From contig CACNUQ010000002.1 of NCBI GenBank assembly GCA_902623685.1, positions 1 through 64,000 on the forward strand: 64,000 nucleotides of DNA, written 5' to 3'. Under the pieces are notes generated by a model, which saw only the letters and a list, made by a program, of their open reading frames with translations, did not search any database and was not told the origin of the DNA. Shown one piece after another: positions 1-34,672 of this stretch. This stretch comes from an uncultured SAR86 cluster bacterium (GTDB taxonomy: Bacteria; Pseudomonadota; Gammaproteobacteria; Magnimaribacterales; D2472). Within the stretch, counting starts at the first letter, position 1. Each line of letters begins with the position of its first letter. The position numbers were made by a program, and so were the translations under genes.

Positions 1-948
1 ATTAAAATCAATTAATTGAAATTGAAAATCTGTAGGAACAGTAACTGCATGACCTACAATTCTTTTTCCTTCTGCATTACATTTTTCAATCCAATCGGTA
101 ATTTCCCATAAACTACCAAAAGTTAAGCCATGTTGATCGACTATAGTAACCAAGGCATTCCAAATCATTGGTCTGCCTGAGGCCTCCATTAATTTCTCAT
201 TAAAATCAAATTCTCCTCCGAGAACCTGCATAAATCCTCTTCCAAGCTTTTTAAGAACTTTTGCAAATTCAATAAAATCATCTGCATCCATTAAATCTGT
301 GATCATTGGAGAGCCATCTGAGTCCCTCTGAACAGATTCTTTTCCTAACCTTTGTGCAGAAATTCCTAGAGAACCAGCATTCATAGATTCTTCTATTAAT
401 CTACAAATTTCTTCTCTTTCTTTTTTATTGCACTTTCTGGTTTTTGCAGCCTCTTTACCCATCACATACATCATTAAGGGGCCAAGAGGAGTAAAGGTGG
501 CAACATTTACACCTTTCGGGGTATTTTCAATGCTATCCATGAACTCTGGATGAGTCTCCCAATCCCAAGGCATGCCTTCTTTCATGGTTTCAAATCTGAC
601 AGCTTCGTTTCTTTCCATTGTTCTCATAGACGCGTCTCTATCTTCAGGTTTGCAAGGTGCAAAACCGAAACCACAATTTCCAATGGTAACAGTCGTAATT
701 CCGTGCCAGCCGTTCATAGTACACCATGGATCCCAATAAATTTGGGAATCAAAATGTGTATGCAAATCTACAAAACCTGGTGCAACAATTTTACCTTCAG
801 CATCAATAACTTTCTTTGCATTTTTGGTGTGGACTTTGCCTATGGATTCTATTACTCCATCTCGTATTCCTATGTCACCTTTGAATCTAGGAGTTCGCTT
901 CCCATCAATAATTGTTCCGTTTTGTATAACTAAATCGTATTCTTTCAT
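1..948 (-). CDS. Amidohydrolase, N-acyl-D-amino-acid deacylase type (partial)
   Basis: The first 316 codons of a metal-dependent hydrolase are visible; the C-terminus lies beyond the left edge. The N-terminus (MKEYDLVIQNGTIIDG) is the usual small beta-sandwich start of amidohydrolases. The metal-binding motif GFVDLHTHFD (HxH) follows near residue 60, then GITTVTIGNCGFG. That order fits the D-aminoacylase / N-acyl-D-Asp or D-Glu deacylase branch (amidohydrolase 3), which removes acyl groups from N-acylated D-amino acids. The true substrate cannot be told. The gene is divergent from a class III aminotransferase across a 219-bp gap carrying operator-like repeats. The promoter at 987-1015 is overlapped by a perfect inverted repeat, so repression is likely. 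A dihydropyrimidinase or other cyclic amidase is less likely given the GNCGFG segment. Confidence 0.85.
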   Translation of the reverse strand, partial: MKEYDLVIQNGTIIDGKRTPRFKGDIGIRDGVIESIGKVHTKNAKKVIDAEGKIVAPGFVDLHTHFDSQIYWDPWCTMNGWHGITTVTIGNCGFGFAPCKPEDRDASMRTMERNEAVRFETMKEGMPWDWETHPEFMDSIENTPKGVNVATFTPLGPLMMYVMGKEAAKTRKCNKKEREEICRLIEESMNAGSLGISAQRLGKESVQRDSDGSPMITDLMDADDFIEFAKVLKKLGRGFMQVLGGEFDFNEKLMEASGRPMIWNALVTIVDQHGLTFGSLWEITDWIEKCNAEGKRIVGHAVTVPTDFQFQLIDFN

Positions 949-986: not shown

Positions 987-1020
987 ATAATACATTTGTA
1001 CGACAAACAATACAAATGTA
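987..1020 (-). promoter_or_regulatory. Promoter overlapped by a perfect 10-bp inverted repeat (operator)
   Basis: TACATTTGTA (991-1000) and TACAAATGTA (1011-1020) are exact inverted copies with centres 20 bp apart. Reading the minus strand, a -35 TTGTAT (1015-1010), a 17-bp spacer and a -10 TATTAT (992-987) fit a sigma-70 promoter for the amidohydrolase. Both arms overlap the promoter, the usual geometry of a repressor site. The regulator is not identified. Confidence 0.6.
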
Positions 1021-1110
1021 AGATAAAAAAATAAATTATTTTTAAAAATATAAGGTCGAAAATAATAGCAAAGATAAATTGATTTCAACCTTCACATTTA
1101 ACTGAATAAG

Positions 1111-1144
1111 TTGTCATAATAAATCTACTATAGTACATTTGTAC
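1111..1144 (+). promoter_or_regulatory. Promoter with operator over the -10 box
   Basis: TTGTCA (1111-1116), 17 bp, then TACATT (1134-1139) form a plausible sigma-70 promoter, with the start codon at 1168. The near-palindrome GTACATTTGTAC (1133-1144) covers the -10. It is the same sequence unit as the repeat before the divergent gene and the pair before the receptor at 9028, so the genes probably share a regulator. Confidence 0.5.
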
Positions 1145-1167
1145 GGTAACAAAACTAATGAAGGTAT

Positions 1168-2556
1168 ATGGAAACAACAATTAGCATAGAAGATAAAATA
1201 TTGCATGGTAAGAATGCTCAATCTATTCGAAAAATACTTAAGGAGAGAACCCCAAAATCTTTTGAGATTAAAAACAAAGGTAAAAAAGTAGCACAAGAAG
1301 TAATACAAACCGTCCGGCTGCCCCATCCTGTTTACATGGAAAGTGCTGAAGGTGGGAATATGACAGACGTAGATGGTAATACTTACATTGACACTACCAT
1401 GGGTTTTGGTCCAATTATTCTGGGGCATAATCATCCTGTTGTAAGAGAGGCTGTTGATAAGCAACTCAATAGAGGATGGCTTTTTGGACTTCCAGGTGAG
1501 GCACAATTTGAACTAGGAGAGTTATTGTGTGATGCAAGTCCCTGCGCTGAAGAAGTCATATGGGCTAATACTGGCACTGAAGCAACAATGTATGCAATGA
1601 GGGCAGCAAGAGCTTTCACCGGAAAATCAAAAATAGGAGTCTTTGATGGGGCTTATCATGGAGCTCACGACTATGCCTTATTTTATGCAACTTTCGAAGA
1701 AGGAACTAATGACAAGCCGAATGGTATGTATGTATCTTCTGGAATCAGTGATGTAATAAAAAATGATACTCTAGAGCTTTTGCCATATAGAAATGAAGCT
1801 GCCTTTGATTTGATTAGAAAAAATAAAGACGACTTAGCAGCTATTATTCTCGAAGGATCTCAAAATTCTAATCCTAGACTTAATAATAAAGATTTTCTTC
1901 AAGGTCTAAGAGATGTTTGCACTGAATGCGATGTTCTTATGATAATGGATGAAGTAGTGACTGGTTTTAGGGTAGATTATGGAGGTATCCAGGGTTACTA
2001 CGGTATAAAAGCTGATATGGCTACATATGGAAAAATTACCGGTGGTGGTTTTCCTGTGGGTGCTGTGGCAGGTAGAAAAGATATAATGGCAGTATTCGGT
2101 GGCAGAGGTGGCGATAAAAGAATTTTTCATGGAGGCACCTTTAATGGCAATCCATTGTCCATGATTGCAGGTCAAGCAGTGATATCTCACCTAAAAGAAA
2201 ATAAAGATACCATATACCCTTCTCTTATGGATAAGGGTAATAGACTGACAAATGAAATTAATAAATTCTGTGAGGAAAATGAGTATCCTGCACAAATTCT
2301 TAACGCTGGCTCAAAGTTTCATATGAAATTTCAGAGGGAATCAATTAGCAATGGGTTTGATATCAAGGGTTATTATGGCGGTGAACACAAACAAGCTGAA
2401 AATGAATTTTATCTTCATCTCCTTGGTCACAACGTAATGGTGCCTGGTGTTCGACTTGCTTTCCTGTGTGATGCGCACACGGATGAAGATGTAACCACAA
2501 TTATCGAATCAATGAAGGCATCTTTTGAGGCAGTAAGAGAAGACGGGTTATTTTAA
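1168..2556 (+). CDS. Class III PLP aminotransferase, glutamate-1-semialdehyde aminomutase-like
   Basis: A 462-residue fold-type I PLP enzyme. Visible landmarks are the substrate-side segment DGNTYIDTTMGFGPIILGH, the phosphate-binding NTGTEATMYAMRAAR, the cofactor-contacting MDEVVTGFR, and the PLP lysine, about K289, in TYGKITGGGFPVGA. The GSA-aminomutase-like branch transfers amino groups or shifts them within the substrate. True HemL is about 425 residues and normally sits apart from catabolic genes, so a catabolic transaminase is more likely. The start at 1168 follows the purine-rich AATGAAGG; an ATG at 1158 is out of frame. An SDR follows 14 bp downstream, suggesting a two-step amine-to-alcohol or ketone conversion. 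Operator overlap implies substrate-controlled expression. Confidence 0.85.
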   Translation: METTISIEDKILHGKNAQSIRKILKERTPKSFEIKNKGKKVAQEVIQTVRLPHPVYMESAEGGNMTDVDGNTYIDTTMGFGPIILGHNHPVVREAVDKQLNRGWLFGLPGEAQFELGELLCDASPCAEEVIWANTGTEATMYAMRAARAFTGKSKIGVFDGAYHGAHDYALFYATFEEGTNDKPNGMYVSSGISDVIKNDTLELLPYRNEAAFDLIRKNKDDLAAIILEGSQNSNPRLNNKDFLQGLRDVCTECDVLMIMDEVVTGFRVDYGGIQGYYGIKADMATYGKITGGGFPVGAVAGRKDIMAVFGGRGGDKRIFHGGTFNGNPLSMIAGQAVISHLKENKDTIYPSLMDKGNRLTNEINKFCEENEYPAQILNAGSKFHMKFQRESISNGFDIKGYYGGEHKQAENEFYLHLLGHNVMVPGVRLAFLCDAHTDEDVTTIIESMKASFEAVREDGLF

Positions 2557-2570
2557 GAAGAGAAAGGCAA

Positions 2571-3365
2571 ATGCAAGATTTATTTAGCGTAGAGGGTAAA
2601 GTAGTTTTGATAACAGGTGGTTCAAAAGGCCTTGGAAAAATGATTGCAGAAGCTTTTGTGCGCTCTGGTTCAAAAGTTTATATAACAGCACGTCATGGTG
2701 CGGTAGTAGAACAAACGGCTAAAGAACTCAGTAAGTATGGTTTATGTATTGGCATAGAAAATGATATCTCATCTAAAGAAGGAATAGATGCCCTCGTTCG
2801 AGAAATAGAAAATAAAGAAGACATACTTGATGTCCTGATAAATAATGCTGCAACTGGCTGGCATGAGCCCTTTGATAATTTTCCTGAAAAAGGATGGGAC
2901 AAAACATTTAATCTAAATATCAAAGCGCCATTTTTTCTTATTCAAGGACTTAAGCCTCTTTTGGAAAAAAATAAAACAAAAGAAAATCCCGCCAAAGTTA
3001 TAAATATAGCTTCGATAGACGGTTTGGGCGTAGCATTTGAGGATTCTTACCCATATACCGCGTCAAAAGCAGGCTTAATTCATTTAACAAAAAGTCTCGC
3101 AAATGAATTAGCCCCCAATAATATATGGGTAAATTGTATTAGCCCAGGAGCCTTTGCGAGTGATATGAATATCGTAGCTAGAGATAATCCTGATCTCTTA
3201 GCTGCATATGTTCCAACAAAGAACATAGGTACGATGGAAGATATTGGTGGTACATGCATATATTTAGCTTCACGTGCAAGCAATTATACTAATGGTGCCA
3301 ACTTTGCTGTAGATGGAGGCTGGACAGCAGCAGCCTATGGTGGCATTCATCCAGATAAGCTGTAA
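2571..3365 (+). CDS. Short-chain dehydrogenase/reductase (SDR)
   Basis: A 264-residue classical SDR. The Rossmann motif TGGSKGLG lies near residues 16-23, NNAA near 92, the catalytic Ser at about S148 (NIASIDG) and the YxxxK pair at Y162/K166 (YTASK). It ends in the usual substrate-loop and C-terminal segment with AVDGGW. It would oxidise or reduce an alcohol/ketone with NAD(P)H in the cytoplasm. It lies 14 bp after the aminotransferase and is surely cotranscribed, so it may act on the product of that enzyme. It resembles the RhlG/FabG-like group, but the substrate is unknown. It ends 10 bp from the convergent transporter gene. Confidence 0.88.
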   Translation: MQDLFSVEGKVVLITGGSKGLGKMIAEAFVRSGSKVYITARHGAVVEQTAKELSKYGLCIGIENDISSKEGIDALVREIENKEDILDVLINNAATGWHEPFDNFPEKGWDKTFNLNIKAPFFLIQGLKPLLEKNKTKENPAKVINIASIDGLGVAFEDSYPYTASKAGLIHLTKSLANELAPNNIWVNCISPGAFASDMNIVARDNPDLLAAYVPTKNIGTMEDIGGTCIYLASRASNYTNGANFAVDGGWTAAAYGGIHPDKL

Positions 3366-3375
3366 GTTAAATTTC

Positions 3376-4797
3376 TTATTTTTTTCTAATATCTAACTGA
3401 TTAAGAATTTCTATATGCCTGTTTTTAGAAAGGTCATACTTACTGAAAAAGTAACACGAAATTAGTCCCAAAGCTGCTACAAATGGACCTAAAACAATAC
3501 CAAGATCGAACAAATTTTCAGATGTTATGTTATCGACATTAGATGGCCATGCTATAAACCATAGAGCAAAACCTGATAATGCAGAGCCTAGTCCAAGCGC
3601 GGCTTTAATTGAAAAAAATGCAGCAGCAAAAAATGCACCTTCTTGACGTTTATGTGTTTGTATTTCTTGCTCATCAGATATATCTGCGAGACTTGATCCA
3701 AATGCTATGTCACAAGGAGTAATGGCAATGCCTTGCATTATCCTAAAAGACACTAAGATCATAACTATTATAGACATTTCAAGATCATCAAGCATTCCCA
3801 ATAATTTCATTAATATTGGAATGATTATAAAAATGATCCACATAGCATTTCCATATAACATGGAATTTCTTTTGTCCAATCTGCTGATTAATCGTTTTGC
3901 TATAAATACTCCTATAAATGCTCCAGGATAAAATGCTAGTCCTACCAGCAGAAGACTCATCTCACCTGACAATCCCCAAAAGAAAGTTAATGCGTATAAC
4001 TCTAAATTAAAAGTAACTCCTGCTGCCATGCTAGTAAAAATATTGCCAAAGAATACCATCCTAAATGAACGATTTTGTAGGGCTGTATAGATATCACTAA
4101 AGATTGACTTGAAGTTATCTGTGATGGAAAAATTTACTTTTTTTTCATCAGTAATCAAGCTAGGAATAACTGACTTTGTTTTCCAAACGCTAGTTATGCT
4201 TGCAAGTAAATAGATCGTTACTACCACAATTATAAAGGGGTTATATACTTCGGGATTCAGTTGGCCATTTGCATATTCATCCGTAGGTGCAAAAAAGTAT
4301 CCATATGCTAGGAACAAAACAATCACATGTCCAAAGAAATAAAAAAATTGCCTATATCCCACAACAGATGCTCTTTCTAAATAATCTTTTGATAATTCTG
4401 CGCCTAAAGCAAAATGCGGTATTGCAAAAAATGTTAAAAATAAGTTTGTTAAGCATGAAAAAAATACAAACCAAGAGAATAATAATATTTCCCCCTCTAC
4501 AAGTGGGGTATATAGTAAGAATGCAGACAAGGCTGTAGGAAATGTACCAATAACAAGGAAAGGAAATCTCCTACCATATTTTGATCTCCAATTATCCGAT
4601 AAAGAACCAATTATTGGATCGGTAATTGCATCAAACAACGAGGCTATTGCAGAAGCTGTACCTGCCAATAAGGGAGATAAACCGAGAATTTGGACGTAAA
4701 AAAAAAATAAAAACATTCTCTGCATAAGGCTTAACGCTCCAACAGATAGCTGACCTAATCCATAACTAGCTTTTAAATTAAATGAGAGATTGCTCAT
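3376..4797 (-). CDS. GPH-family (MelB-like) cation symporter
   Basis: A 473-residue polytopic membrane protein with about 12 hydrophobic helices. The N-terminal YGLGQLSVGAL, the segment SLFDAITDPIIGSLSD and the following basic KYGRRFPF are hallmarks of the glycoside-pentoside-hexuronide:cation symporter family. It probably imports a small organic solute across the inner membrane with Na+ or H+. It starts 3 bp after the stop of the upstream carboxylesterase, so the two form one minus-strand unit. With the outer-membrane receptor further upstream they could form an uptake path for an ester- or glycoside-type nutrient. The exact solute is not predictable. Confidence 0.85.
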   Translation of the reverse strand: MSNLSFNLKASYGLGQLSVGALSLMQRMFLFFFYVQILGLSPLLAGTASAIASLFDAITDPIIGSLSDNWRSKYGRRFPFLVIGTFPTALSAFLLYTPLVEGEILLFSWFVFFSCLTNLFLTFFAIPHFALGAELSKDYLERASVVGYRQFFYFFGHVIVLFLAYGYFFAPTDEYANGQLNPEVYNPFIIVVVTIYLLASITSVWKTKSVIPSLITDEKKVNFSITDNFKSIFSDIYTALQNRSFRMVFFGNIFTSMAAGVTFNLELYALTFFWGLSGEMSLLLVGLAFYPGAFIGVFIAKRLISRLDKRNSMLYGNAMWIIFIIIPILMKLLGMLDDLEMSIIVMILVSFRIMQGIAITPCDIAFGSSLADISDEQEIQTHKRQEGAFFAAAFFSIKAALGLGSALSGFALWFIAWPSNVDNITSENLFDLGIVLGPFVAALGLISCYFFSKYDLSKNRHIEILNQLDIRKK

Positions 4798-4800
4798 TGT

Positions 4801-6396
4801 TTATAGATTGCCTGGAATTCTCGATTCTACCTTATCCCATGCTTTTCTAAGAGAAGAGTTAAAGTCTTCTACAATACGAAACTCTTTATCTATCACAAGA
4901 GTATTTCTATCTCGTCCATATGTCTTCCATTCAATACTGGGAACATTTGAACAAGGATCGCCAGATTTCATAAAATTGCTCCACATATTGAATACAAGAT
5001 CTGCAACTTTATCTATCTCGGGACTCTCTCCAGTCATTGCAACTCCCTCGGCAGTTTTATGCCATCCAAAATAAAAAGGCAAACCAGAGCCATGAAAAGG
5101 ACTTCCATATGGCCCTGGAAAAGTCCAAATATAATTAAAAACATTTTTGTTTTTGACAGATAAAGCTTCAGCCAAACGAACTGTCGAGACCCAAAAGTAC
5201 TTATGACCATTCATCTTCATGAAACAATCTGGAATTGACGCTTCTAAATTATTTTGTTTTAAGTGATCGCTATAAGCTAACAATAGGGATCTTATGTCAT
5301 CTTTTGCTTTATCTTTAGTGAAATTTAAATACTTTGATTTCCTTAGCCAGTCTTTATATTCTTCATCTACGGCTTGTTCTAGGTCAAACTCTCTTAAACC
5401 TTGAAATAGTTCATCATAGCCAAACGCTTCATCATCTGAAGTCCCAATAATAACGTCTATACCTTCAGCAGACCCCTGTTTTATAGACTCTAATGGCTCA
5501 AGAGGAATATAATGACCATCAATACAGGGCTTTGCATGTGCTTGAGTTGCAAAGTCTGGATTTTCTCTTGAAAAATCACTGTTTGGATCCTGCAACTTTG
5601 CATCGAATGCTTTTAATTGCTCTGTTGTCAAAGCATGAATCTTATCAATATCTTTAGGGTCAATGTTGTACTCTTCTAAAAGCTTTAGCGCCAATCTATT
5701 AGATTCCTCTTTGGGTTGAAAAGTCTCCGCACCTCCATCACAAATAATAGCTTTCTGAAAAAGACCTTTTGCTGATGGCATTGAAATCAGTGTGCTTATG
5801 CTGTGACCTCCAGCTGATTGACCTATAACTGAAATATTATTTTCATCCCCACCAAAAAATTGGATATTTTGTTTAATCCAGTTTAATGCCTCTATTTGAT
5901 CCAATAATGCTTCACATCCTGTCGAATCTATTTTTCCTTCTGTAATATCAGTGAGTCTGAGAAAACCAAAGCAGGCTAATCTGTAATTTATACTGACGAC
6001 AACAAATTCTTTATTTCTACAAATGTTATCTGGGTTCAGAAGATCTTCATTTCCACTTCCCATCCACCAAGCCCCACCATGTATCCAAACCATTACAGGT
6101 CTTTTGGCATCCTCTATTTCTGGAGTCCAAATATTTAAACTCAAACAATCCTCGCTCTGATTTGAAAGTGATTGAGTGATTTCTGATGTTGCCTCATTGT
6201 CATAAACTGCCTCATTCTGAGGTGAGATAGGACCATATTCAGTGCAGTCCTTTATTTCAGACCATGGTGTTATAGGTTTTGTGGGGAGCCATCTATTTTT
6301 ACCAACTGGAGGCTCAGCATAAGGTATGCCTTTGAATGAATAAATGTCTTTGTCAAGCTTACCTAAAACAATTCCACTATTTGTTGCTATCTTCAT
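4801..6396 (-). CDS. Type B carboxylesterase (alpha/beta hydrolase)
   Basis: A 531-residue esterase of the carboxylesterase/para-nitrobenzyl esterase family. It opens with GIVLGKLDKDIYSFKGIPYAEPPVG, typical of the family. The oxyanion motif HGGAW is at 106-110, the nucleophile elbow is GQSAGG with Ser at about 194, and HGSGLPFYFG near residue 430 carries the likely catalytic His. The elbow has Gln where most members have Glu (GESAGG). No signal peptide is visible, so a cytoplasmic location is likely. It hydrolyses an unidentified carboxylic ester. It is paired with the GPH transporter downstream and isolated from the upstream receptor gene by a strong terminator at 6446-6484. Confidence 0.88.
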   Translation of the reverse strand: MKIATNSGIVLGKLDKDIYSFKGIPYAEPPVGKNRWLPTKPITPWSEIKDCTEYGPISPQNEAVYDNEATSEITQSLSNQSEDCLSLNIWTPEIEDAKRPVMVWIHGGAWWMGSGNEDLLNPDNICRNKEFVVVSINYRLACFGFLRLTDITEGKIDSTGCEALLDQIEALNWIKQNIQFFGGDENNISVIGQSAGGHSISTLISMPSAKGLFQKAIICDGGAETFQPKEESNRLALKLLEEYNIDPKDIDKIHALTTEQLKAFDAKLQDPNSDFSRENPDFATQAHAKPCIDGHYIPLEPLESIKQGSAEGIDVIIGTSDDEAFGYDELFQGLREFDLEQAVDEEYKDWLRKSKYLNFTKDKAKDDIRSLLLAYSDHLKQNNLEASIPDCFMKMNGHKYFWVSTVRLAEALSVKNKNVFNYIWTFPGPYGSPFHGSGLPFYFGWHKTAEGVAMTGESPEIDKVADLVFNMWSNFMKSGDPCSNVPSIEWKTYGRDRNTLVIDKEFRIVEDFNSSLRKAWDKVESRIPGNL

Positions 6397-6445
6397 GCTT
6401 TTAGTCTCATTGAATATATAAACTATTAAATGACTTTCATTATAT

Positions 6446-6484
6446 AAAAAAAAACCCGGGCTCTCTCAAGTCCGGGTATTTTTT
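6446..6484 (-). terminator. Rho-independent terminator after the TonB-dependent receptor
   Basis: On the minus strand ACCCGGACT and AGCCCGGGT form a 9-bp stem with one mismatch and a 6-nt loop, followed by nine T. It sits 16 bp past the receptor stop and before the esterase start. The plus strand also ends in a T run, so it may act in both directions. Confidence 0.85.
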
Positions 6485-6499
6485 ATCTTAGCCTTGTTT

Positions 6500-9028
6500 C
6501 TAGTTAAAATCCCAAATTAAGCTAATGCCTGTCTCCATTGGTCTTCCATATTGTCTACCCAATGTACCAAAACCGTAAGAAACATCATCAACATAAGTAG
6601 CATAGACTTCATCCGTTGCATTATTTACATACAACGCAGCTCTCCATCCATTATTACTATTAAGGGTATATCTTAGATTTGCAACTGAGTATTCCTCCAA
6701 TGCGTATTCATTAGCTGAATCACCAAACCTGTCACCCACGGTTGAGTAATTAGCAAAGAATCTTCCTGACATACCATTTCCAAGCTCGTGTGATGCATCA
6801 ATACTAAAACCAAAAGTTTCTTCTGGTGCATTAGCCATCTTGTTGCCAGCTGCTACTAAGGTTCCTCCGCCGAAACCTTTGAAGCCACTATCTAACGTAG
6901 CATCGGTATCAGTTACAAAGGCTGATACAGAAACGTTATCGGTTATATTGTAACTAAATGTAAACTCATAACCATCTGAAGATGCGTCTCCAGCATTAGC
7001 AATATATACTCCACCTATAGTATCTAAAGCGTAGTCAGAGACATGAATAGCCACATCATCAATTTCTTGTTGATAGACAGCAGCAGTTAAATCAACTTTA
7101 CCATCAGCAAGAGTACCTTTGTATCCTAATTCTAAATTGGTAAGTTCATCAGAATCATATTGAGTAACTGTATCTGCATAAGCAAGCTTTTCTTGGCTGT
7201 GTGTCCCAGGAGCAACAGCATTTTGTGCAATCCATCTAGATTTATTCCATAGGGGTGCTCCGTTTGAGCCACCCATTTTAATACCAGAAGAATAATTTAG
7301 GTACAATAAATGATCGTCATCAGACCATGAAATATTCAATTTAGGAGTTGTAGCATTTTCACTAAACTCATCTGTAGTATCTCCCACAACAATAGTTTTA
7401 CTCAGATCAGAAAATCTAACTCCTGCAGTAACAGTCCAATTTTCATCCATCTGATAGGTTAATTCACCGTAAATAGATGTATCTTCTATGTCAGTGTTAG
7501 GACTTTCGAAGTCCACTTTCATTCCGCAATTTAATGAACAAATCGGATTACCTCTGCTGTCAACAGTTGCACCCCCAAGAGTTGCCCTTGCAGGTGTAAA
7601 GTATGATTGAGGAAAGGTTGTATCTCTATTTTCTTCTGAATCTTTAAAGAACAATCCTACGACATAAAATAAATCATCTGTAGGCTCAGCAGTGAAACGA
7701 AATTCTTGAGTTAACTGCTCAGATTCACCAGTTACTATACCAACTGCGTTTGAAATAGATCTTCCGTCCGGAAAAGGAGCTGCAAAAATATTTGTAAAAG
7801 AAGCATTCTGTGGTCCAGAAATCGCAGGATCATTACAAGGAATAAAACAGTTTTGCCAACCATCAGCACTAAAAACACCTTCACCAAAATTAAGTGTTAG
7901 GCCATTGACATATATATCTAGAACAAATCTTCTCTCTTCGTTAAAAGGAGTTCTTCTTTGAACATCTCTATTCATCATAGATGTTATAGAAGAGAAAGTT
8001 CCATTTTCAGTTTCCAGATCAAATTTTAAAGAATTAACATTATATTCTTCTTCATTTCCAGGCATTATATTGCTGCCTACATTAACTGAGCGACCAAGTT
8101 TTGGATCATAAACAAAATAATCAGCAGCTGGTGCTGCAGTTCCAACGTAGAGAGATTCAGCTGCAGAATATGGAAGTATTAAACTTCTGTTATCTAAATA
8201 AGGATTAGCTGCATCCGGAGTCGCATAAGACCAGTTATAACCATCTTGTTCATTCTTGGCAAAAGTACTAGAAAATTGAGTTGTAAGATTGTCTCTCTCA
8301 AAAAGAACTGAGAATCTACCACCTGACATATCACCTTCATTCCAATCTTCTTTGTCTTTGGTTGCTGTTTTATAATCAATAAAGCCTCCAACTGTAGATG
8401 TGTATGCTGATAATCTCATAGCTCCATTTTCTAAAGGAATATTTATCATTGCATCTATTCTTGTTGAATCTCCAGAATCAGAACCTGTTCCATATTTAGC
8501 CTTAACTTTTGATTCAAATTCACTTTTATTGGGTTTATTGTAAATGTACCTGACTGTTCCAGCCTGAGATGCCTCACCAAATAATGTACCTTGAGGGCCT
8601 TTAAGCACCTCAACACGATTTAGATCAAATGTATCTCCTGCACTACCATAAGAGCCTGAAATACCCGATGTTATAGGCACATCATCTATATAAACTCCAG
8701 TAGTCGCACCCATCTGAGCACCTGGATAAGCTATATCTTGAGAGTCAACACCCCTGATAATAATTCTGCTTCTTCCGATACCATCAGAAAATAAGTTTAG
8801 TCCAGCAGACGATCTAAATATATCCTCTAGACTTTCGGCGCTAAGCTGCTCCATTGAATCTTCGCCAATTGCATCAACCGACATCGGTGTATCCATTGCA
8901 TTTGTTTCTCTAAAAGTTGCAGTAATAACAACTTCTTCCATGCTTTTTTCTTGCGCAAAAGTAAAATTTGCAAACGAGATAAAAGGCAAAGCTAGAGTGA
9001 TAGTGAGTAATTTTTTTAATAATTTCAT
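6500..9028 (-). CDS. TonB-dependent outer-membrane receptor
   Basis: An 842-residue TonB-dependent receptor. The start is placed at 9028 because GGGGGA lies just upstream and the protein then begins with a standard signal peptide (MKLLKKLLTITLALPFISFA, cleavage near FTFAQ). A longer reading frame to 9100 would run through the operator repeats. The mature N-terminus has the TonB box EEVVITATF, a plug domain (SGIGRSR-like stretch, IRGVDSQD, then VEVLKGPQGTLFGEASQAG) and a long beta-barrel ending in GISLIWDFN with the terminal aromatic. The family imports scarce nutrients through the outer membrane using TonB-ExbBD energy. The neighbours suggest an organic substrate rather than iron. Confidence 0.93.
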   Translation of the reverse strand: MKLLKKLLTITLALPFISFANFTFAQEKSMEEVVITATFRETNAMDTPMSVDAIGEDSMEQLSAESLEDIFRSSAGLNLFSDGIGRSRIIIRGVDSQDIAYPGAQMGATTGVYIDDVPITSGISGSYGSAGDTFDLNRVEVLKGPQGTLFGEASQAGTVRYIYNKPNKSEFESKVKAKYGTGSDSGDSTRIDAMINIPLENGAMRLSAYTSTVGGFIDYKTATKDKEDWNEGDMSGGRFSVLFERDNLTTQFSSTFAKNEQDGYNWSYATPDAANPYLDNRSLILPYSAAESLYVGTAAPAADYFVYDPKLGRSVNVGSNIMPGNEEEYNVNSLKFDLETENGTFSSITSMMNRDVQRRTPFNEERRFVLDIYVNGLTLNFGEGVFSADGWQNCFIPCNDPAISGPQNASFTNIFAAPFPDGRSISNAVGIVTGESEQLTQEFRFTAEPTDDLFYVVGLFFKDSEENRDTTFPQSYFTPARATLGGATVDSRGNPICSLNCGMKVDFESPNTDIEDTSIYGELTYQMDENWTVTAGVRFSDLSKTIVVGDTTDEFSENATTPKLNISWSDDDHLLYLNYSSGIKMGGSNGAPLWNKSRWIAQNAVAPGTHSQEKLAYADTVTQYDSDELTNLELGYKGTLADGKVDLTAAVYQQEIDDVAIHVSDYALDTIGGVYIANAGDASSDGYEFTFSYNITDNVSVSAFVTDTDATLDSGFKGFGGGTLVAAGNKMANAPEETFGFSIDASHELGNGMSGRFFANYSTVGDRFGDSANEYALEEYSVANLRYTLNSNNGWRAALYVNNATDEVYATYVDDVSYGFGTLGRQYGRPMETGISLIWDFN

Positions 9029-9081
9029 GAATTTTCCCCCTGAATAATCATGGTTTACATATAATAAATATATATGTAATC

Positions 9082-9104
9082 GTACAAATGTCCAGTACAA
9101 ATGT
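9082..9104 (-). promoter_or_regulatory. Tandem operator-like repeats before the receptor
   Basis: GTACAAATGT occurs twice (9082-9091 and 9095-9104) with a 3-bp spacer, 54-76 bp upstream of the receptor start. On the minus strand each copy reads ACATTTGTAC and contains TTGTAC, a plausible -35 element. It is the same unit as at 991-1020 and 1133-1144. Confidence 0.5.
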
Positions 9105-9158
9105 TTTTTTTGCTAAATTTCATTGCAAAAAAGCTATAAAGTTATTTTTTGACTTAAA

Positions 9159-9842
9159 TTAACGGATTTTCCTTCCTATATGCGAAATAGATTCGAAAGT
9201 GACAAAATCGCCGATACTGTTGTTTAATAATTCTATAGTGCTGTTATGATTCTCAAGTGTGTCAAAACAGTTATGCCAAACAAAATCAAAAGTATTTTTT
9301 GTGTCTTCGCTTAAAGGTTTTAATAGTGCAGAAAGACATGATCCCATGATATCTAATTGTTTAATTTTTTTATGATGACGTTTCTCAAAGGCAAGCAAAT
9401 CAGACTCATTAAAGCCCTCTTTATAGTTACAATATCTAAATTCCTGAAAGTACATCCTCTCATCAAAGGGCAGAATCTTTCCTCTAATGCTAGCCTTATA
9501 TTCTAAAATATTATCTGTATCAAAAAGAAGCACTGATCCATTTTCATCATTCCATTTAATTTCATGGTTTTCTTTCCAATCTTTCCAAAATTTATCTCTA
9601 TCTTTGGTCCAAAGTTCTTGCTGCCATAGCATATCGTAATTATGGTTTGATGATCTTGGTAATAATGATACAGCCATGAGAATATCAAAATTCTCTTTAT
9701 CTATTTTTTCGTTCCATCGTTCAGTGAAATCTTTAAAATTTTCATCTGAGAAGTTAGGGCCTTTTTTACATGGAACAAATTCCACCATCCAATCGCCCCA
9801 TTCATCGTCATTTTTCCATATTTCTGAATCTACTTTTTCCAT
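9159..9842 (-). CDS. Hypothetical protein, 227 residues
   Basis: I do not recognise this protein. It is a soluble, highly charged and Trp-rich protein with no signal peptide or membrane segment. Short aromatic-acidic repeats such as WKNDDEWGDWMVEFVP occur in the first third, with an ExRYCNY segment in the middle. It follows the pattern of EthD-like or dimeric alpha/beta-barrel proteins only loosely, so I do not assign a family. It lies between the TonB receptor and the divergent nitrogen block. An operator-like TACATTTGTGC at 9964-9974 and an 11-bp inverted repeat lie in its upstream region. Codon use matches its neighbours. Confidence 0.6.
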   Translation of the reverse strand: MEKVDSEIWKNDDEWGDWMVEFVPCKKGPNFSDENFKDFTERWNEKIDKENFDILMAVSLLPRSSNHNYDMLWQQELWTKDRDKFWKDWKENHEIKWNDENGSVLLFDTDNILEYKASIRGKILPFDERMYFQEFRYCNYKEGFNESDLLAFEKRHHKKIKQLDIMGSCLSALLKPLSEDTKNTFDFVWHNCFDTLENHNSTIELLNNSIGDFVTFESISHIGRKIR

Positions 9843-9925: not shown

Positions 9926-9963
9926 GACCCAATTTTCATAAAAGCAATATACATTAAAAATAA

Positions 9964-9974
9964 TACATTTGTGC
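9964..9974. promoter_or_regulatory. Possible extra operator copy
   Basis: TACATTTGTGC differs from the TACATTTGTAC unit seen at 991-1001 by one base. It lies between the divergent 227-residue gene and the sigma-54 promoter. A single imperfect copy is weak evidence. Confidence 0.3.
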
Positions 9975-10008
9975 AGTTTTATTGATGGATATTTACTAAA
10001 GAATCAAT

Positions 10009-10024
10009 TGGCACAGTAATTGCA
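10009..10024 (+). promoter_or_regulatory. Sigma-54 (RpoN) promoter
   Basis: TGGCACAGTAATTGCA matches the RpoN consensus TGGCACG-N4-TTGCW at every defined position but one, with correct GG/GC spacing. Transcription would begin near 10035, giving a leader of about 30 nt to the porin start at 10065. Sigma-54 control of P-II/amtB by NtrC under nitrogen limitation is well established. I could not find a convincing NtrC site upstream. Confidence 0.8.
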
Positions 10025-10064
10025 TTACTAATTATTGTAAGTTCATAAACATATAGGAGAAATT

Positions 10065-10658
10065 ATGAAACGATTATTATTATTAGTAAGTATGCTTGCT
10101 ATCCCCTCTTTTGCAGCTGTAAGCGCAAATGTGGCCTTCACTTCAGATTATGTCTGGAGAGGAATGACACAAAGTGATGGGCCTGCCATTCAGGGCGGTT
10201 TTGATTACGAAGCTGAAGGCGGTTTCTACGCAGGCATCTGGGGGTCAAACGTTAATTTTAACGATGGCGCAGGTAGTGAGTTAGATTATTACGCTGGCTA
10301 TGGTTTTTCTTTAGGTAATGTAGGTGTTGACGTTGGTTACATTGCATTTGATTATCCTGAAAACCAAACTGGTTTAGATTTCGAAGAAATCTACTTAGGC
10401 CTTTCTTTTGGTGATTTAGGCGTGTTCTTCGCTTCTGGTCAAGATGGTGCTCCAGATTACACAGAATTTTCATATGGACTTGGTCCTGTATCGCTTTCAT
10501 ATGGTACTTATGATGATGTTAGCGATAATATTACTCTGAGTTATGGTTTTGCCTGCGGTTCATACGAGTGTGGACTGACTATGTATGACATGACAGATGA
10601 AGGATACGGAACTGGTGATGAAGATGGAATTTTCTTCTCAATTTCAGCAAGCCTATAA
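10065..10658 (+). CDS. TorF-family (Gcw_chp) putative porin
   Basis: A 197-residue exported protein. A signal peptide (MKRLLLLVSMLAIPSFAAVSA) leads to FTSDYVWRGMTQSDGPAIQGG, the diagnostic opening of the TIGR02001/Gcw_chp family. It continues in alternating beta-strands rich in Gly, Tyr and acidic residues and ends in SISASL, consistent with a small outer-membrane barrel. It has a good ribosome site (AGGAGA). It lies 3 bp before P-II and shares the sigma-54 promoter, so it is probably a nitrogen-stress channel that increases outer-membrane permeability for a nitrogenous solute. Family members are known near ammonium and nitrogen genes, but transport specificity is unproven. Confidence 0.85.
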   Translation: MKRLLLLVSMLAIPSFAAVSANVAFTSDYVWRGMTQSDGPAIQGGFDYEAEGGFYAGIWGSNVNFNDGAGSELDYYAGYGFSLGNVGVDVGYIAFDYPENQTGLDFEEIYLGLSFGDLGVFFASGQDGAPDYTEFSYGLGPVSLSYGTYDDVSDNITLSYGFACGSYECGLTMYDMTDEGYGTGDEDGIFFSISASL

Positions 10659-31394: not shown

Positions 31395-33947
31395 TTAGTA
31401 GGTATATCTAAATCCAATCGAGTAGGTTGTTCCATACTCATCGTATTGTGATAAACGGTCTTTGAAACCCCAGTAATAATATTCAGGTTCATCAGTTAAA
31501 TTAATTCCCTCAGCTCTAATAGTAAGATTATCGTTGATTTTATATTTAAGAGTAAAGTCCAATTGTGAATGATCATCAACATATCGAGAATTGTCTAAAG
31601 AAACTGTATCTATATCTCCTTCCTCATCAGCAAGCCAATCCAAGTAATCTCCTCTTGAGGAAAGAGCAAGACGAGCATCAATTTTACCTTTGTCATATCC
31701 AATTGAAATATTGCTTTGTCGGTCTGATAATTTTCTAAATGGAGTTGTAAAGGTTTGATTATCGTCAAATGAGAAAGTGCTATCACCGTCAGTGTAAGTC
31801 ATATTCATAGCTAAATATAATCCATCAAACGGTGCAGAAAGAAAATCAAATTCTTGCTGGTAGTTAAATTCTAAACCTTTAATATCTGATTCTTCTGCAT
31901 TGATATAAGTTTTAACACCATCATTAAAATTGATCCCGTTGATTGTTGCGGTTTTTTGATATGTTGGATAGATTGCGTTATCTATTTGCTTAAGAAAAAT
32001 TCCAACGCTTAAGAAAAATAATTCATCGCCATAATACTCATAAGATAAATCAAAATTATTTGCCTCATAGGGTTCTAAATCTGGGTTTCCATATGAGCCT
32101 TTAATATCATCGATATCTCTTTCAACTTCAGCTACCGGAGCAGCATAGGAAAACTTAGGTCTTGAAAGTGCTCGCCAAATTGCACCTCGAATAAGTTCAT
32201 TTTCTGAAAGAAAATATTTGACAGTTAGATTAGGAGATACAAATGTGTAGCTATTAGAGCCATAAGTTTTAGTTGTTCCTGAATCGTATGCTGATGATTC
32301 AAAATCAGTATCCTCAACTCTTATACCTGCAATGATTAAAGCATTTTCAGCCTCAATTGTAGTCATTGCGTATAAAGATAAAACATCTTCCTGAGCAGTA
32401 AAATCTGACTCTAATAATTCTTGACCATCAAGTGTCATTGATGATAGTTGGGATTTCATTTGCGCAGTCGCAGCAGCAGACGCATGGGCAGCGAATGTTT
32501 GACCAGCAAACGGCCAGGCAATTGTTACAGGATCAAAATCCGCCATTGTTTTTCCATCCCACTCATAAAAATCTTTATTTTCATCTCTGATAACCTCGCG
32601 AGTTCTATATTTAAATCCAAATTTAATTGTAGAAGGCAAATCACCAAAATATGAATCTTTTTGAAAATCAACCTTAAAAGCTGTCTCTTCATCTTCAATG
32701 GTTGATCGCTCCAGCTCTAATTCTTTAAAATTTAAATTTGCAGGATCATAAAGCTCCCTATAAGCGGGATAAACATTCAAAAATGGCTTTTTTGGATCGC
32801 TAAAGTTGTATTGGCCTAAAGCTGTATCGCTGCTTAATGCTTTTAAATTTGTACAATCTTCATCTTTGCCTGCCCTTAAATAACATCTAAAAGTTACATC
32901 GGCATTATCAGTATCATCTTGTTCAGCATAAGAATAGCTAAGCTGAAATGAGGTATCCCATTCTCCAATTACAGTATCTCCTCCAAAATTAATTGCTTGG
33001 ATCGTTCTAATCTCCTCACGCACTCTGCTTTCAGCATCATGGCGAATCCTGGAGGTTTCCATGAGTGTGTCTGTTGTGGTGCCAGTTTGAGTGATTTTTC
33101 CGTACTCGTCTTTCCAACGTAACTCATCATCCACATACTCATTCCAAAATGCTTTTACATACAATGTGGTTACATCACTAACTAGAAAATCAATATCATA
33201 GGTAAGACCATATCTTTCTCTGGTTAGGTCGTAATAGCGCATCTCCCAATCATCATTCATTTCTTTTAAGCCAGCAGAGTTTGTTTCCCAACCATATCCA
33301 GTTTCATTGTTATAGGATACGATTTGTTTACTTGAGTATGTAATACCAATAACGTGTGCTGAAGTTTCAGAAATTTTATCGCCATAAGTTAAGGCTATTT
33401 TAGGATTATCGCTACTTTCAGAATTTTCATTGTATGAAGTATCAAACTTCATTTTAAATAATGTTTTTTTAAGGCTGCTAGGATTCTTTGTATTAAATTC
33501 AACTCTGCCTCCAATTGAATCAGCATCCTGGTCAGGCGTTAAACTTTTAGAAATAACAATGCTGTCGAGCAACTCTGTAGGAACTCCATCAAGCATAACA
33601 CTTCTATCGCCTTCAGGTGCGGTGACAGTTGCTCCATTAATTGCCACGGTATTAAGATCTGAGCTTAGACCACGAATGGAGACATATCTTCCCTCACCCT
33701 GATCATTCTCGACAGCAATTCCGGATACCCTTCTTACTGCCTCTGCAGCTGTTGTATCTGGAAATTCACCTAGAGCATCAGAATCAATAACAGAAATAAT
33801 TTGCCCAGAAGCTCTTTGTTTATCAATTGCACTGATTAAGCTTGCTTTTGTTCCAACTACAACGACCTCTTCAACATTTTCTATTTCTGAATCCTGAGAG
33901 TATAAAATGCCTGCAAATAATAAATTGAGTAGTAATATTTTTTTCAT
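31395..33947 (-). CDS. TonB-dependent receptor, TIGR01782-like, paired with phytase
   Basis: An 850-residue receptor. A signal peptide MKKILLLNLLFAGILYS leads to the TonB-box-like EEVVVVGTKASL. The plug follows: AVRRVSGIAVENDQGEGRYV, SIRGLSSDLNTVAINGATV and LLDSIVISKSLTPDQDADSI, a pattern typical of the Xanthomonas/Caulobacter-type TIGR01782 subfamily. The barrel ends in TTYSIGFRYTY with a terminal aromatic. It imports an organic ligand through the outer membrane. Linkage to the phytase suggests phytate or its inositol-phosphate products, an inference. It is divergent from a TetR gene, with a weak Pho-box-like repeat at 33987-34004. Confidence 0.92.
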   Translation of the reverse strand: MKKILLLNLLFAGILYSQDSEIENVEEVVVVGTKASLISAIDKQRASGQIISVIDSDALGEFPDTTAAEAVRRVSGIAVENDQGEGRYVSIRGLSSDLNTVAINGATVTAPEGDRSVMLDGVPTELLDSIVISKSLTPDQDADSIGGRVEFNTKNPSSLKKTLFKMKFDTSYNENSESSDNPKIALTYGDKISETSAHVIGITYSSKQIVSYNNETGYGWETNSAGLKEMNDDWEMRYYDLTRERYGLTYDIDFLVSDVTTLYVKAFWNEYVDDELRWKDEYGKITQTGTTTDTLMETSRIRHDAESRVREEIRTIQAINFGGDTVIGEWDTSFQLSYSYAEQDDTDNADVTFRCYLRAGKDEDCTNLKALSSDTALGQYNFSDPKKPFLNVYPAYRELYDPANLNFKELELERSTIEDEETAFKVDFQKDSYFGDLPSTIKFGFKYRTREVIRDENKDFYEWDGKTMADFDPVTIAWPFAGQTFAAHASAAATAQMKSQLSSMTLDGQELLESDFTAQEDVLSLYAMTTIEAENALIIAGIRVEDTDFESSAYDSGTTKTYGSNSYTFVSPNLTVKYFLSENELIRGAIWRALSRPKFSYAAPVAEVERDIDDIKGSYGNPDLEPYEANNFDLSYEYYGDELFFLSVGIFLKQIDNAIYPTYQKTATINGINFNDGVKTYINAEESDIKGLEFNYQQEFDFLSAPFDGLYLAMNMTYTDGDSTFSFDDNQTFTTPFRKLSDRQSNISIGYDKGKIDARLALSSRGDYLDWLADEEGDIDTVSLDNSRYVDDHSQLDFTLKYKINDNLTIRAEGINLTDEPEYYYWGFKDRLSQYDEYGTTYSIGFRYTY

Positions 33948-33986
33948 GATGAATGCTCCTTTAAGAAATCAAAAATAATTGTTGAA

Positions 33987-34004
33987 TGTGACAAGTCTGT
34001 GAAG
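33987..34004 (-). promoter_or_regulatory. Weak PhoB-box-like direct repeat
   Basis: On the minus strand CTTCACA-GACT-TGTCACA is an 11-bp-period direct repeat 40 bp upstream of the receptor start. It resembles PhoB-box heptamers (TGTCATA/TGTCACA), with about 10 of 18 positions matching the E. coli consensus. Its position before a phytase receptor supports the call; the match alone would not. Confidence 0.35.
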
Positions 34005-34078
34005 TTGATTAATCTTTTGTGGAAATTATTTTTTAATTAAAATTTGTATATTTATAAACATTTGTCGATAATTAACTA

Positions 34079-34672
34079 ATGCAACCAGCTAAACAAAAAA
34101 GAAGTCAAGAAAGAGTTGAAAAAATATTATCTGTTGCTGATGAAATTCTATGCGAGGGTCTTATTTCCGACTTAACAATTGCAAATATTTCAAAAGTTGC
34201 TGAACTAAAACGCACTTCAACTTATAAGTTTTTTGAAACCCCCGATGATATTAAAATAGCCCTAATAGAAAAATATGTTGATGCCTGCTCATTACATTTA
34301 TCCAACAATCTCAGCTCTAAAGTAAGTAATGAGTATCAACAATGTATTATGGATTGTTGTGAAATTATCCATGAGTTTTTTCGCAATCAGTCCGGTGCAA
34401 AAAAACTAATTCTAGAAAATACAATAAGTCCGCCTGTTCCAAGTAAGGAGATGCAAAAAGTATCAGTTATGATTCAAAAGCATTTAGAGAAAAATCTTAC
34501 CCTTCCTTCCATGTTTAACAAAGAAGGTGTTTTTTTAGTTGTCACGCAAATCATATTTGCAGTCCTATCTCTGGATGTGAAAGAAACATCTGATTTAACT
34601 CAAGTTGGTTTAAATGAAGCAGCTCGATCAAGCCATGCTTATTTACTTAGCTGCATTGCGATAGAGAGCTAA
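34079..34672 (+). CDS. TetR-family transcriptional regulator
   Basis: A 197-residue protein. The first 60 residues form the TetR helix-turn-helix: KRSQERVEKILSVADEILCE, LTIANISKVAELKRTSTYKF and FETPDDIKIALIEKYVD. The C-terminal part is a helical ligand-binding and dimerisation domain with no recognisable subfamily. It probably represses a nearby unit. It is divergent from the phytase-linked receptor across 131 bp, the usual arrangement for a local regulator. ACATTTGT (34058-34065) in its promoter recalls the operator unit of the 1-10 kb block, but only as a half site. The 3' end overlaps the convergent SnoaL-like gene by 4 bp. Confidence 0.88.
   Translation: MQPAKQKRSQERVEKILSVADEILCEGLISDLTIANISKVAELKRTSTYKFFETPDDIKIALIEKYVDACSLHLSNNLSSKVSNEYQQCIMDCCEIIHEFFRNQSGAKKLILENTISPPVPSKEMQKVSVMIQKHLEKNLTLPSMFNKEGVFLVVTQIIFAVLSLDVKETSDLTQVGLNEAARSSHAYLLSCIAIES

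Follow-up and report, generated by a model that had tools for sequence, protein, structure and literature searches.

The element GTACAWWTGTAC, which recurs in the promoters of catabolic genes of an uncultured SAR86 bacterium, is very probably the operator of a TetR repressor encoded on the same genomic island, which would co-control the uptake and the breakdown of one nutrient. The window, the stretch of 64,000 nucleotides analysed here, corresponds to positions 1-64000 of contig C2 of a 1.31-Mb draft genome (G000; 41 contigs, 81.8% complete). Its left part begins with an amidohydrolase gene (Amidohydro_3, D-aminoacylase-like; 1-948, minus strand) that is cut by the contig start and whose product is 91% identical to the protein of G031, followed by genes for a glutamate-1-semialdehyde-aminomutase-like class III aminotransferase (1168-2556, plus strand) and a short-chain dehydrogenase (SDR; 2571-3365, plus strand). 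The minus strand then encodes an MFS_2/GPH-type symporter (3376-4797), a type-B carboxylesterase with no signal peptide obvious by eye (4801-6396) and a TonB-dependent receptor (6500-9028), whose best curated match is a siderophore-receptor model and which shares about 50% identity with its positional counterpart in G031. The right end of the inserted island is formed by an ORF of 227 aa (9159-9842, minus strand) for which neither Pfam nor the compared loci of the relatives yielded a match.

A preliminary description had pointed to a repeated near-palindrome in this region, and direct reading together with a scan of the window recovered copies at each of the places it named. The 12-mer GTACATTTGTAC is a palindrome save for its central bases, with halves GTAC. 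An exact copy (1133-1144, plus strand) is situated 23 bp 5' of the aminotransferase start and overlaps its -10 (TATAGT), and the inverted pair TACATTTGTA/TACAAATGTA described over the amidohydrolase promoter is likewise present (991-1000 and 1011-1020; one and two mismatches when read as 12-mers). The first member of this pair, the operator candidate ATACATTTGTAC (990-1001, plus strand), is located 41 bp 5' of the amidohydrolase start and aligns with a single site in G031 and G046; the inverted second copy TTACATTTGTAT (1010-1021, minus strand) is possibly an auxiliary half of the operator. The direct pair ahead of the TonB receptor lies on the minus strand and comprises the candidate GGACATTTGTAC (9082-9093, one mismatch), 53 bp 5' of the receptor start, and AAACATTTGTAC (9095-9106, two mismatches), 13 bp further upstream. 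In the TonB promoters of G031, G046 and the related contig L077 the sites are paired as well, with different spacings. Most promoters show a -10-like TATARt that the palindrome either overlaps or adjoins; in the TonB promoter of the window the paired sites lie farther away, upstream of an AT-rich region. Scoring of the 64-kb window with a PWM built on six sites that lie outside it gives 1133, 990 and 9082, in this order, as the top three matches and leaves 9095, 9963 and 1010 in the noise. The near copy ATACATTTGTGC (9963-9974, plus strand, two mismatches), which the preliminary description had counted with the others, exists but does not rise above chance and is unsupported as an operator; it was discarded as a glnK-amtB operator given its two mismatches, its place in the PWM noise and the fact that same-genus relatives lack it at this promoter.

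With up to two mismatches the window holds 14 matches, a number reached by none of 100 shuffles (5.0 +/- 2.3). The genome-wide scan proposed in the preliminary description was carried out on G000 and gave, with up to one mismatch, seven places against three for a backwards control, the expectation, estimated from second-order Markov statistics of a portion of the genome, being about 4. Five of these seven places are regulon promoters (990, 1133 and 9082 of the window, C7:666 and C8:51530), and the other two (C2:135047 and C6:55321) are inside unrelated ORFs. The exact 12-mer occurs once (0.08 expected) and exact GTACAWWTGTAC twice (once in the control). With up to two mismatches no excess was found across G000 (118 against 179 in the control), and the 10-mer core occurs at eight places against five; a genome-wide excess was thus dropped as proof, and the intra-ORF matches at C2:135047, C6:55321, C9:23388 and C11:2909 were set aside as chance. 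Since the excess within the own genome is small and disappears with two mismatches, the argument rests on the comparison between genomes. The signal fits a small, dedicated, local regulon and not a global one, because places with at most one mismatch are few and mostly regulon promoters, and because there is no excess at two mismatches.

Outside the window, G000 carries two further sites, each with one mismatch to the 12-mer. That at C7:666 is 61 bp 5' of a dehydrogenase gene, which is followed by a gene for a second class III aminotransferase. The site at C8:51530, GTACAATTGTAC, is 26 bp 5' of a TetR gene and 85 bp 5' of a divergent SDR operon. The C7 operon is on a different contig from the TetR gene and yet has kept its site, which supports control in trans. 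The beta-lactamase-like hydrolase gene of C7 is split into overlapping frames (L016, 3262-3960 and 3917-4420), as would result from either a frameshift or an assembly error; the gene is whole in G031 and G046.

G031 and G046 belong to another family and encode the aminotransferase at 81% identity. Both contain the TonB receptor, esterase, symporter, SDR, aminotransferase, amidohydrolase, a PhyH-like protein and a CoA ligase, together with the TetR, the dehydrogenase, the second aminotransferase and the beta-lactamase-like hydrolase; in G046 this gene set is spread over several contigs. Exact 12-mers number three in G031 and four in G046 and are found in the aminotransferase/amidohydrolase promoter, in the TonB promoter and between the TetR gene and a divergent dehydrogenase operon. 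A near copy of the SAR86 cluster, with three exact sites, one of them before the TetR gene, is present on L077 (PACV01000073.1), a contig assigned to a Flavobacteriaceae MAG and most likely mis-binned. In the alignment of the aminotransferase promoters the stretch TTATAxTACATTTGTACGA is conserved while much of the remaining intergenic sequence has diverged between G000 and the others, a comparison that amounts essentially to two independent lineages as G031, G046 and L077 are close relatives. Aminotransferase homologues with 49-52% identity in other SAR86 genomes have different surroundings and were rejected as paralogues; in the four paralogue loci read (L022-L024 and L076, the latter from a Gammaproteobacteria MAG) no site with up to two mismatches precedes the aminotransferase, the two matches of L024 both being inside ORFs. 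Homologues with 56% identity from high-GC genomes (L073-L075) showed no site within two mismatches. In G046 an additional exact site lies 10 bp 5' of a third class III aminotransferase gene (L054, 114-1490; G046:C23), a possible further member of the regulon.

Across the order, exact GTACAWWTGTAC is found in 12 of 203 genomes with 19 sites in total, nine of which are in G000, G031 and G046. The remaining 200 genomes have 10 sites in about 225 Mb (rounded genome sizes added up), at which rate the three named would have 0.16 (Poisson P 1.7e-13), a probability to be read with the closeness of G031 and G046 in mind, as their site counts are not independent events. The same three genomes are the ones that encode the TetR (E<=1e-10; 3/203), the aminotransferase at 80% identity or more (3/203) and the dehydrogenase at 78% or more, the latter protein being matched in 111 genomes with the rest at 47-54%. 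A search of 368 other genomes of the class at E<=1e-14 brought up no additional protein related to the TetR. By ORF reading, 9/9 sites of the three genomes are in promoters, where for the amidohydrolase of G031 and G046 the start was chosen by its match to the window protein, the earliest start codon of that frame falling within the site itself. Of the 10 sites elsewhere, among them an MFS ORF shared by four related genomes, seven are inside ORFs; the other three (L058, L063 and L065), including one that overlaps a start codon, were counted as promoter sites. The earlier proposal of a single regulator is thereby strengthened, the sites being kept at orthologous promoters in another family and co-occurring with one TetR in three of 203 genomes.

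The preliminary description had also remarked that the regulator was not evident in the window, and indeed the TetR gene was found off it, in a stretch of the genome that synteny places to its left. In same-genus relatives SDR256 directly adjoins Gcw_chp in 20 of the 20 loci examined, a dehydrogenase also flanks this locus, and glnK-amtB follows on the Gcw_chp side in three longer stretches. In G000 the two flank genes (SDR256 and dehydrogenase, 82-90% identity) are on C8, ahead of the SDR operon, the TetR gene and a CoA ligase gene cut by the contig end, and Gcw_chp, at window position 10065, is preceded by the island genes, which run back to the amidohydrolase at the contig start. On this gene order, the first ~9.9 kb of the window are the right-hand portion of an island that was inserted next to glnK-amtB. 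The order amidohydrolase, PhyH, ligase, TetR found in G031 is that expected across the gap of G000, and the simplest reading would be one island between two flanks, interrupted by an assembly gap of about 2.3 kb as estimated from G031 coordinates. Because such an island would join C8 and C2, the TetR gene should be located some 3.4-4 kb left of the window's first base, a link that in G000 is one of synteny across the gap. No match to the aminotransferase was found in the other genomes among the 26 of the genus (E<=1e-120), and base composition gives no sign of transfer (GC 35.8% in the island, 35.7% in the rest). At 9995-10064, 5' of Gcw_chp-glnK-amtB, the window has a conserved TTGGCAC-N5-TTGCAT, which we take to be a sigma-54-type -24/-12 promoter; this motif or close variants of it are common to the own genome and to the same-genus relatives whose promoter is unmasked.

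The TetR gene of G000 (C8:51569-52150) adjoins the assembly gap. Its product shares about 37% identity overall with the G031 and G046 orthologues, and despite this the helix-turn-helix (HTH) segments THRSVA and VAHSTVSYYFRTIDD are identical between them, a pattern that constraint on the DNA site would produce. The N-terminal helix-turn-helix family TetR_N (PF00440) is above the cut-off in the G000 and G031 proteins. The AlphaFold2 model of the island regulator consists of nine helices (pLDDT 89.7, pTM 0.83), and TetR structures head both lists obtained by structure comparison (e.g., Z 19.8, rmsd 2.2, 176 aligned), so that the model has the all-helical TetR fold. Moreover, the palindrome is present in the regulator's own promoter, as GTACAATTGTAC in G000 and as GTACATTTGTAC in G031, G046 and L077.

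A three-sequence profile of the TetR matched eight sequences in the PDB, three of which are E. coli RcdA, and a search of open-access papers for the exact string of the 12-mer gave as relevant matches RcdA and cyanobacterial LexA. A SELEX and footprinting study reports binding of RcdA between rcdA and ybjJ, most likely to the palindrome TTGTGTACAttTGTACACAA, which it gives in slightly different form where the footprints are described, and reports that the protein represses the divergent MFS operon (ybjJ) and activates its own gene (PMC3535384). The rcdA promoter of E. coli K-12 carries TTGTGTACATTTGTACACAA, and the sequence confirms GTACATTTGTAC 24 bp 5' of the rcdA start. The two operators thus have an identical 12-mer in their core, and the E. 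coli operator has the regulator gene on one side and a divergently transcribed MFS operon on the other, much as a SAR86 site flanks the TetR gene; the outer arms TTGT..ACAA of the RcdA operator are absent from the SAR86 sites. The proteins have the HTH residues THR..A..A.V......YYF..ID in common, with 25% identity over 146 aa between RcdA and the G031 TetR. This low identity and neighbouring genes that differ from those of rcdA, which stands beside ybjJ, led to the rejection of the island TetR as an RcdA orthologue; in addition, RcdA has many targets in E. coli and activates its own gene, whereas the SAR86 regulon is local and catabolic. The core operator thus has experimental support from a protein that belongs, distantly, to the same family, and the same 12-bp core is suggested to be read by TetR proteins as distant as E. 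coli RcdA.

The regulator can now be named, local TetR control of a catabolic island being already known as a type. A site over the -10 usually blocks polymerase. The -10 hexamer (TATARTACATTTGTACGA) shares bases with the palindrome or adjoins it at most promoters, and a dimer of the TetR, encoded on the same horizontally and, most likely, recently acquired island as the window sites, would bind the palindrome and block RNA polymerase. Four units would be repressed: the aminotransferase-SDR genes with the divergent amidohydrolase; the TonB receptor, esterase and symporter; the dehydrogenase, aminotransferase and serine hydrolase of C7; and, on C8, the TetR gene itself with the divergent SDR operon. 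The inducer would be the imported nutrient or a breakdown product of it, releasing the repressor so that uptake and breakdown begin together. The gene content (hydrolases, aminotransferases, dehydrogenases, CoA ligase) suggests an ester- and/or amide-linked amine; such a compound would be hydrolysed, lose its amino group through the aminotransferases, be oxidised and be activated by conversion to a CoA ester. The nutrient may be a single, nitrogen-containing one. Tentatively, and with less chance of being right than wrong, the whole may be taken as a mobile, self-regulated island that has spread between SAR86 families and serves the use of an ester- or amide-linked long-chain amine, a metabolite of the sea akin to sphingoids or fumonisin, the TonB receptor being a carbon/nitrogen receptor and not a siderophore receptor. 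SAR86 bacteria are among the most abundant of the surface ocean, and the cargo of their many TonB receptors is largely unknown. A recent SAR86 comparison names mainly siderophore-type TonB receptors (PMC11582366). The shared operator ties one TonB receptor of the island to hydrolases, aminotransferases and a CoA ligase, which makes its cargo testable, and provides an example of how a small genome can carry a dedicated and portable pair of repressor and operator. A literature search on SAR86, TetR, TonB receptor and operator gave no SAR86 paper among the 15 matches listed.

Several known systems resemble parts of this arrangement. An example of local TetR control over a catabolic cluster is the qsd operon of Rhodococcus, whose regulator is QsdR. 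This operon also has regulated hydrolase and acyl-CoA ligase genes that the nutrient switches on, but differs in operator and substrate, and the beginning of the abstract makes no mention of a TonB receptor (PMC6262395). PheR of Sphingobium is, like the SAR86 TetR, one repressor over catabolic genes and TonB-dependent functions, although it belongs to the IclR family and acts on another motif and on phenanthrene catabolism (PMC13273656). The likeness to fumonisin breakdown is one of logic; the regulator and further genes of the fumonisin cluster differ from those of the SAR86 island. The cluster of Sphingopyxis MTA144 also has a TonB receptor and a permease, and we know of no marine source of fumonisin. 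Its fumD esterase and fumI aminotransferase follow the same esterase-then-aminotransferase logic (PMC4843849). In a search with the SAR86 esterase, the fumonisin esterase 8s6d (E 7.5e-45) ranks behind p-nitrobenzyl and other esterases (down to E 4e-81); the idea of a fumonisin cluster with a FumD-type esterase as nearest relative was rejected, the p-nitrobenzyl esterase being closer.

Other explanations of the sites have been weighed against repression by the island TetR. It is rather unlikely that the regulator is right and acts as an activator or dual regulator instead of a plain repressor: RcdA activates rcdA from its own palindrome while repressing the divergent operon (PMC3535384), and the sites of the window's TonB promoter are farther from a recognisable -10, whereas at most promoters the palindrome overlaps or abuts that hexamer. 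A core-promoter element, in which a -10 extended by a palindrome is retained through common descent and read by no dedicated regulator, would account for sites that abut TATARt and for the orthology of the G031, G046 and L077 promoters. We regard it as very unlikely, since exact sites are far rarer in the 200 other genomes of the order (10 in ~225 Mb), the sites of G000 also stand at units arranged unlike those of G031 (the C7 operon away from the TetR gene, and the SDR operon of C8), and the PWM derived from sites outside the window finds the window promoters. There is scarcely any likelihood of a LexA-type SOS box, as LexA would be expected broadly across genomes and exact sites are absent from 191 of the 203 genomes of the order, the regulon promoters, as far as the exact-site list goes, being those of catabolic and not of SOS genes. 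The resemblance is to cyanobacterial LexA boxes of the form AGTACWNWTGTACT, including CGTACATTTGTACC; the E. coli-type LexA uses CTG(TA)5CAG (PMC3091678).

Binding of the site by another regulator is highly improbable. The preliminary description had looked to nearby proteins, and a candidate is available in the window, where the ORF at 34079-34672 is TetR-like and adjoins a TonB receptor gene, both families being judged from the translation. This gene is, however, present in 21 of the 26 genomes of the genus, G000 included, while the 25 genomes other than G000 lack the exact site, and its own promoter offers a best match with three mismatches; its wide spread in the genus without sites and the lack of one in its own promoter speak against the nearby protein and leave the island TetR as the favoured regulator. 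At 31395-34672 the second TonB receptor gene of the window is divergent from this TetR gene, and the two are probably a local regulatory pair of their own with a different operator.
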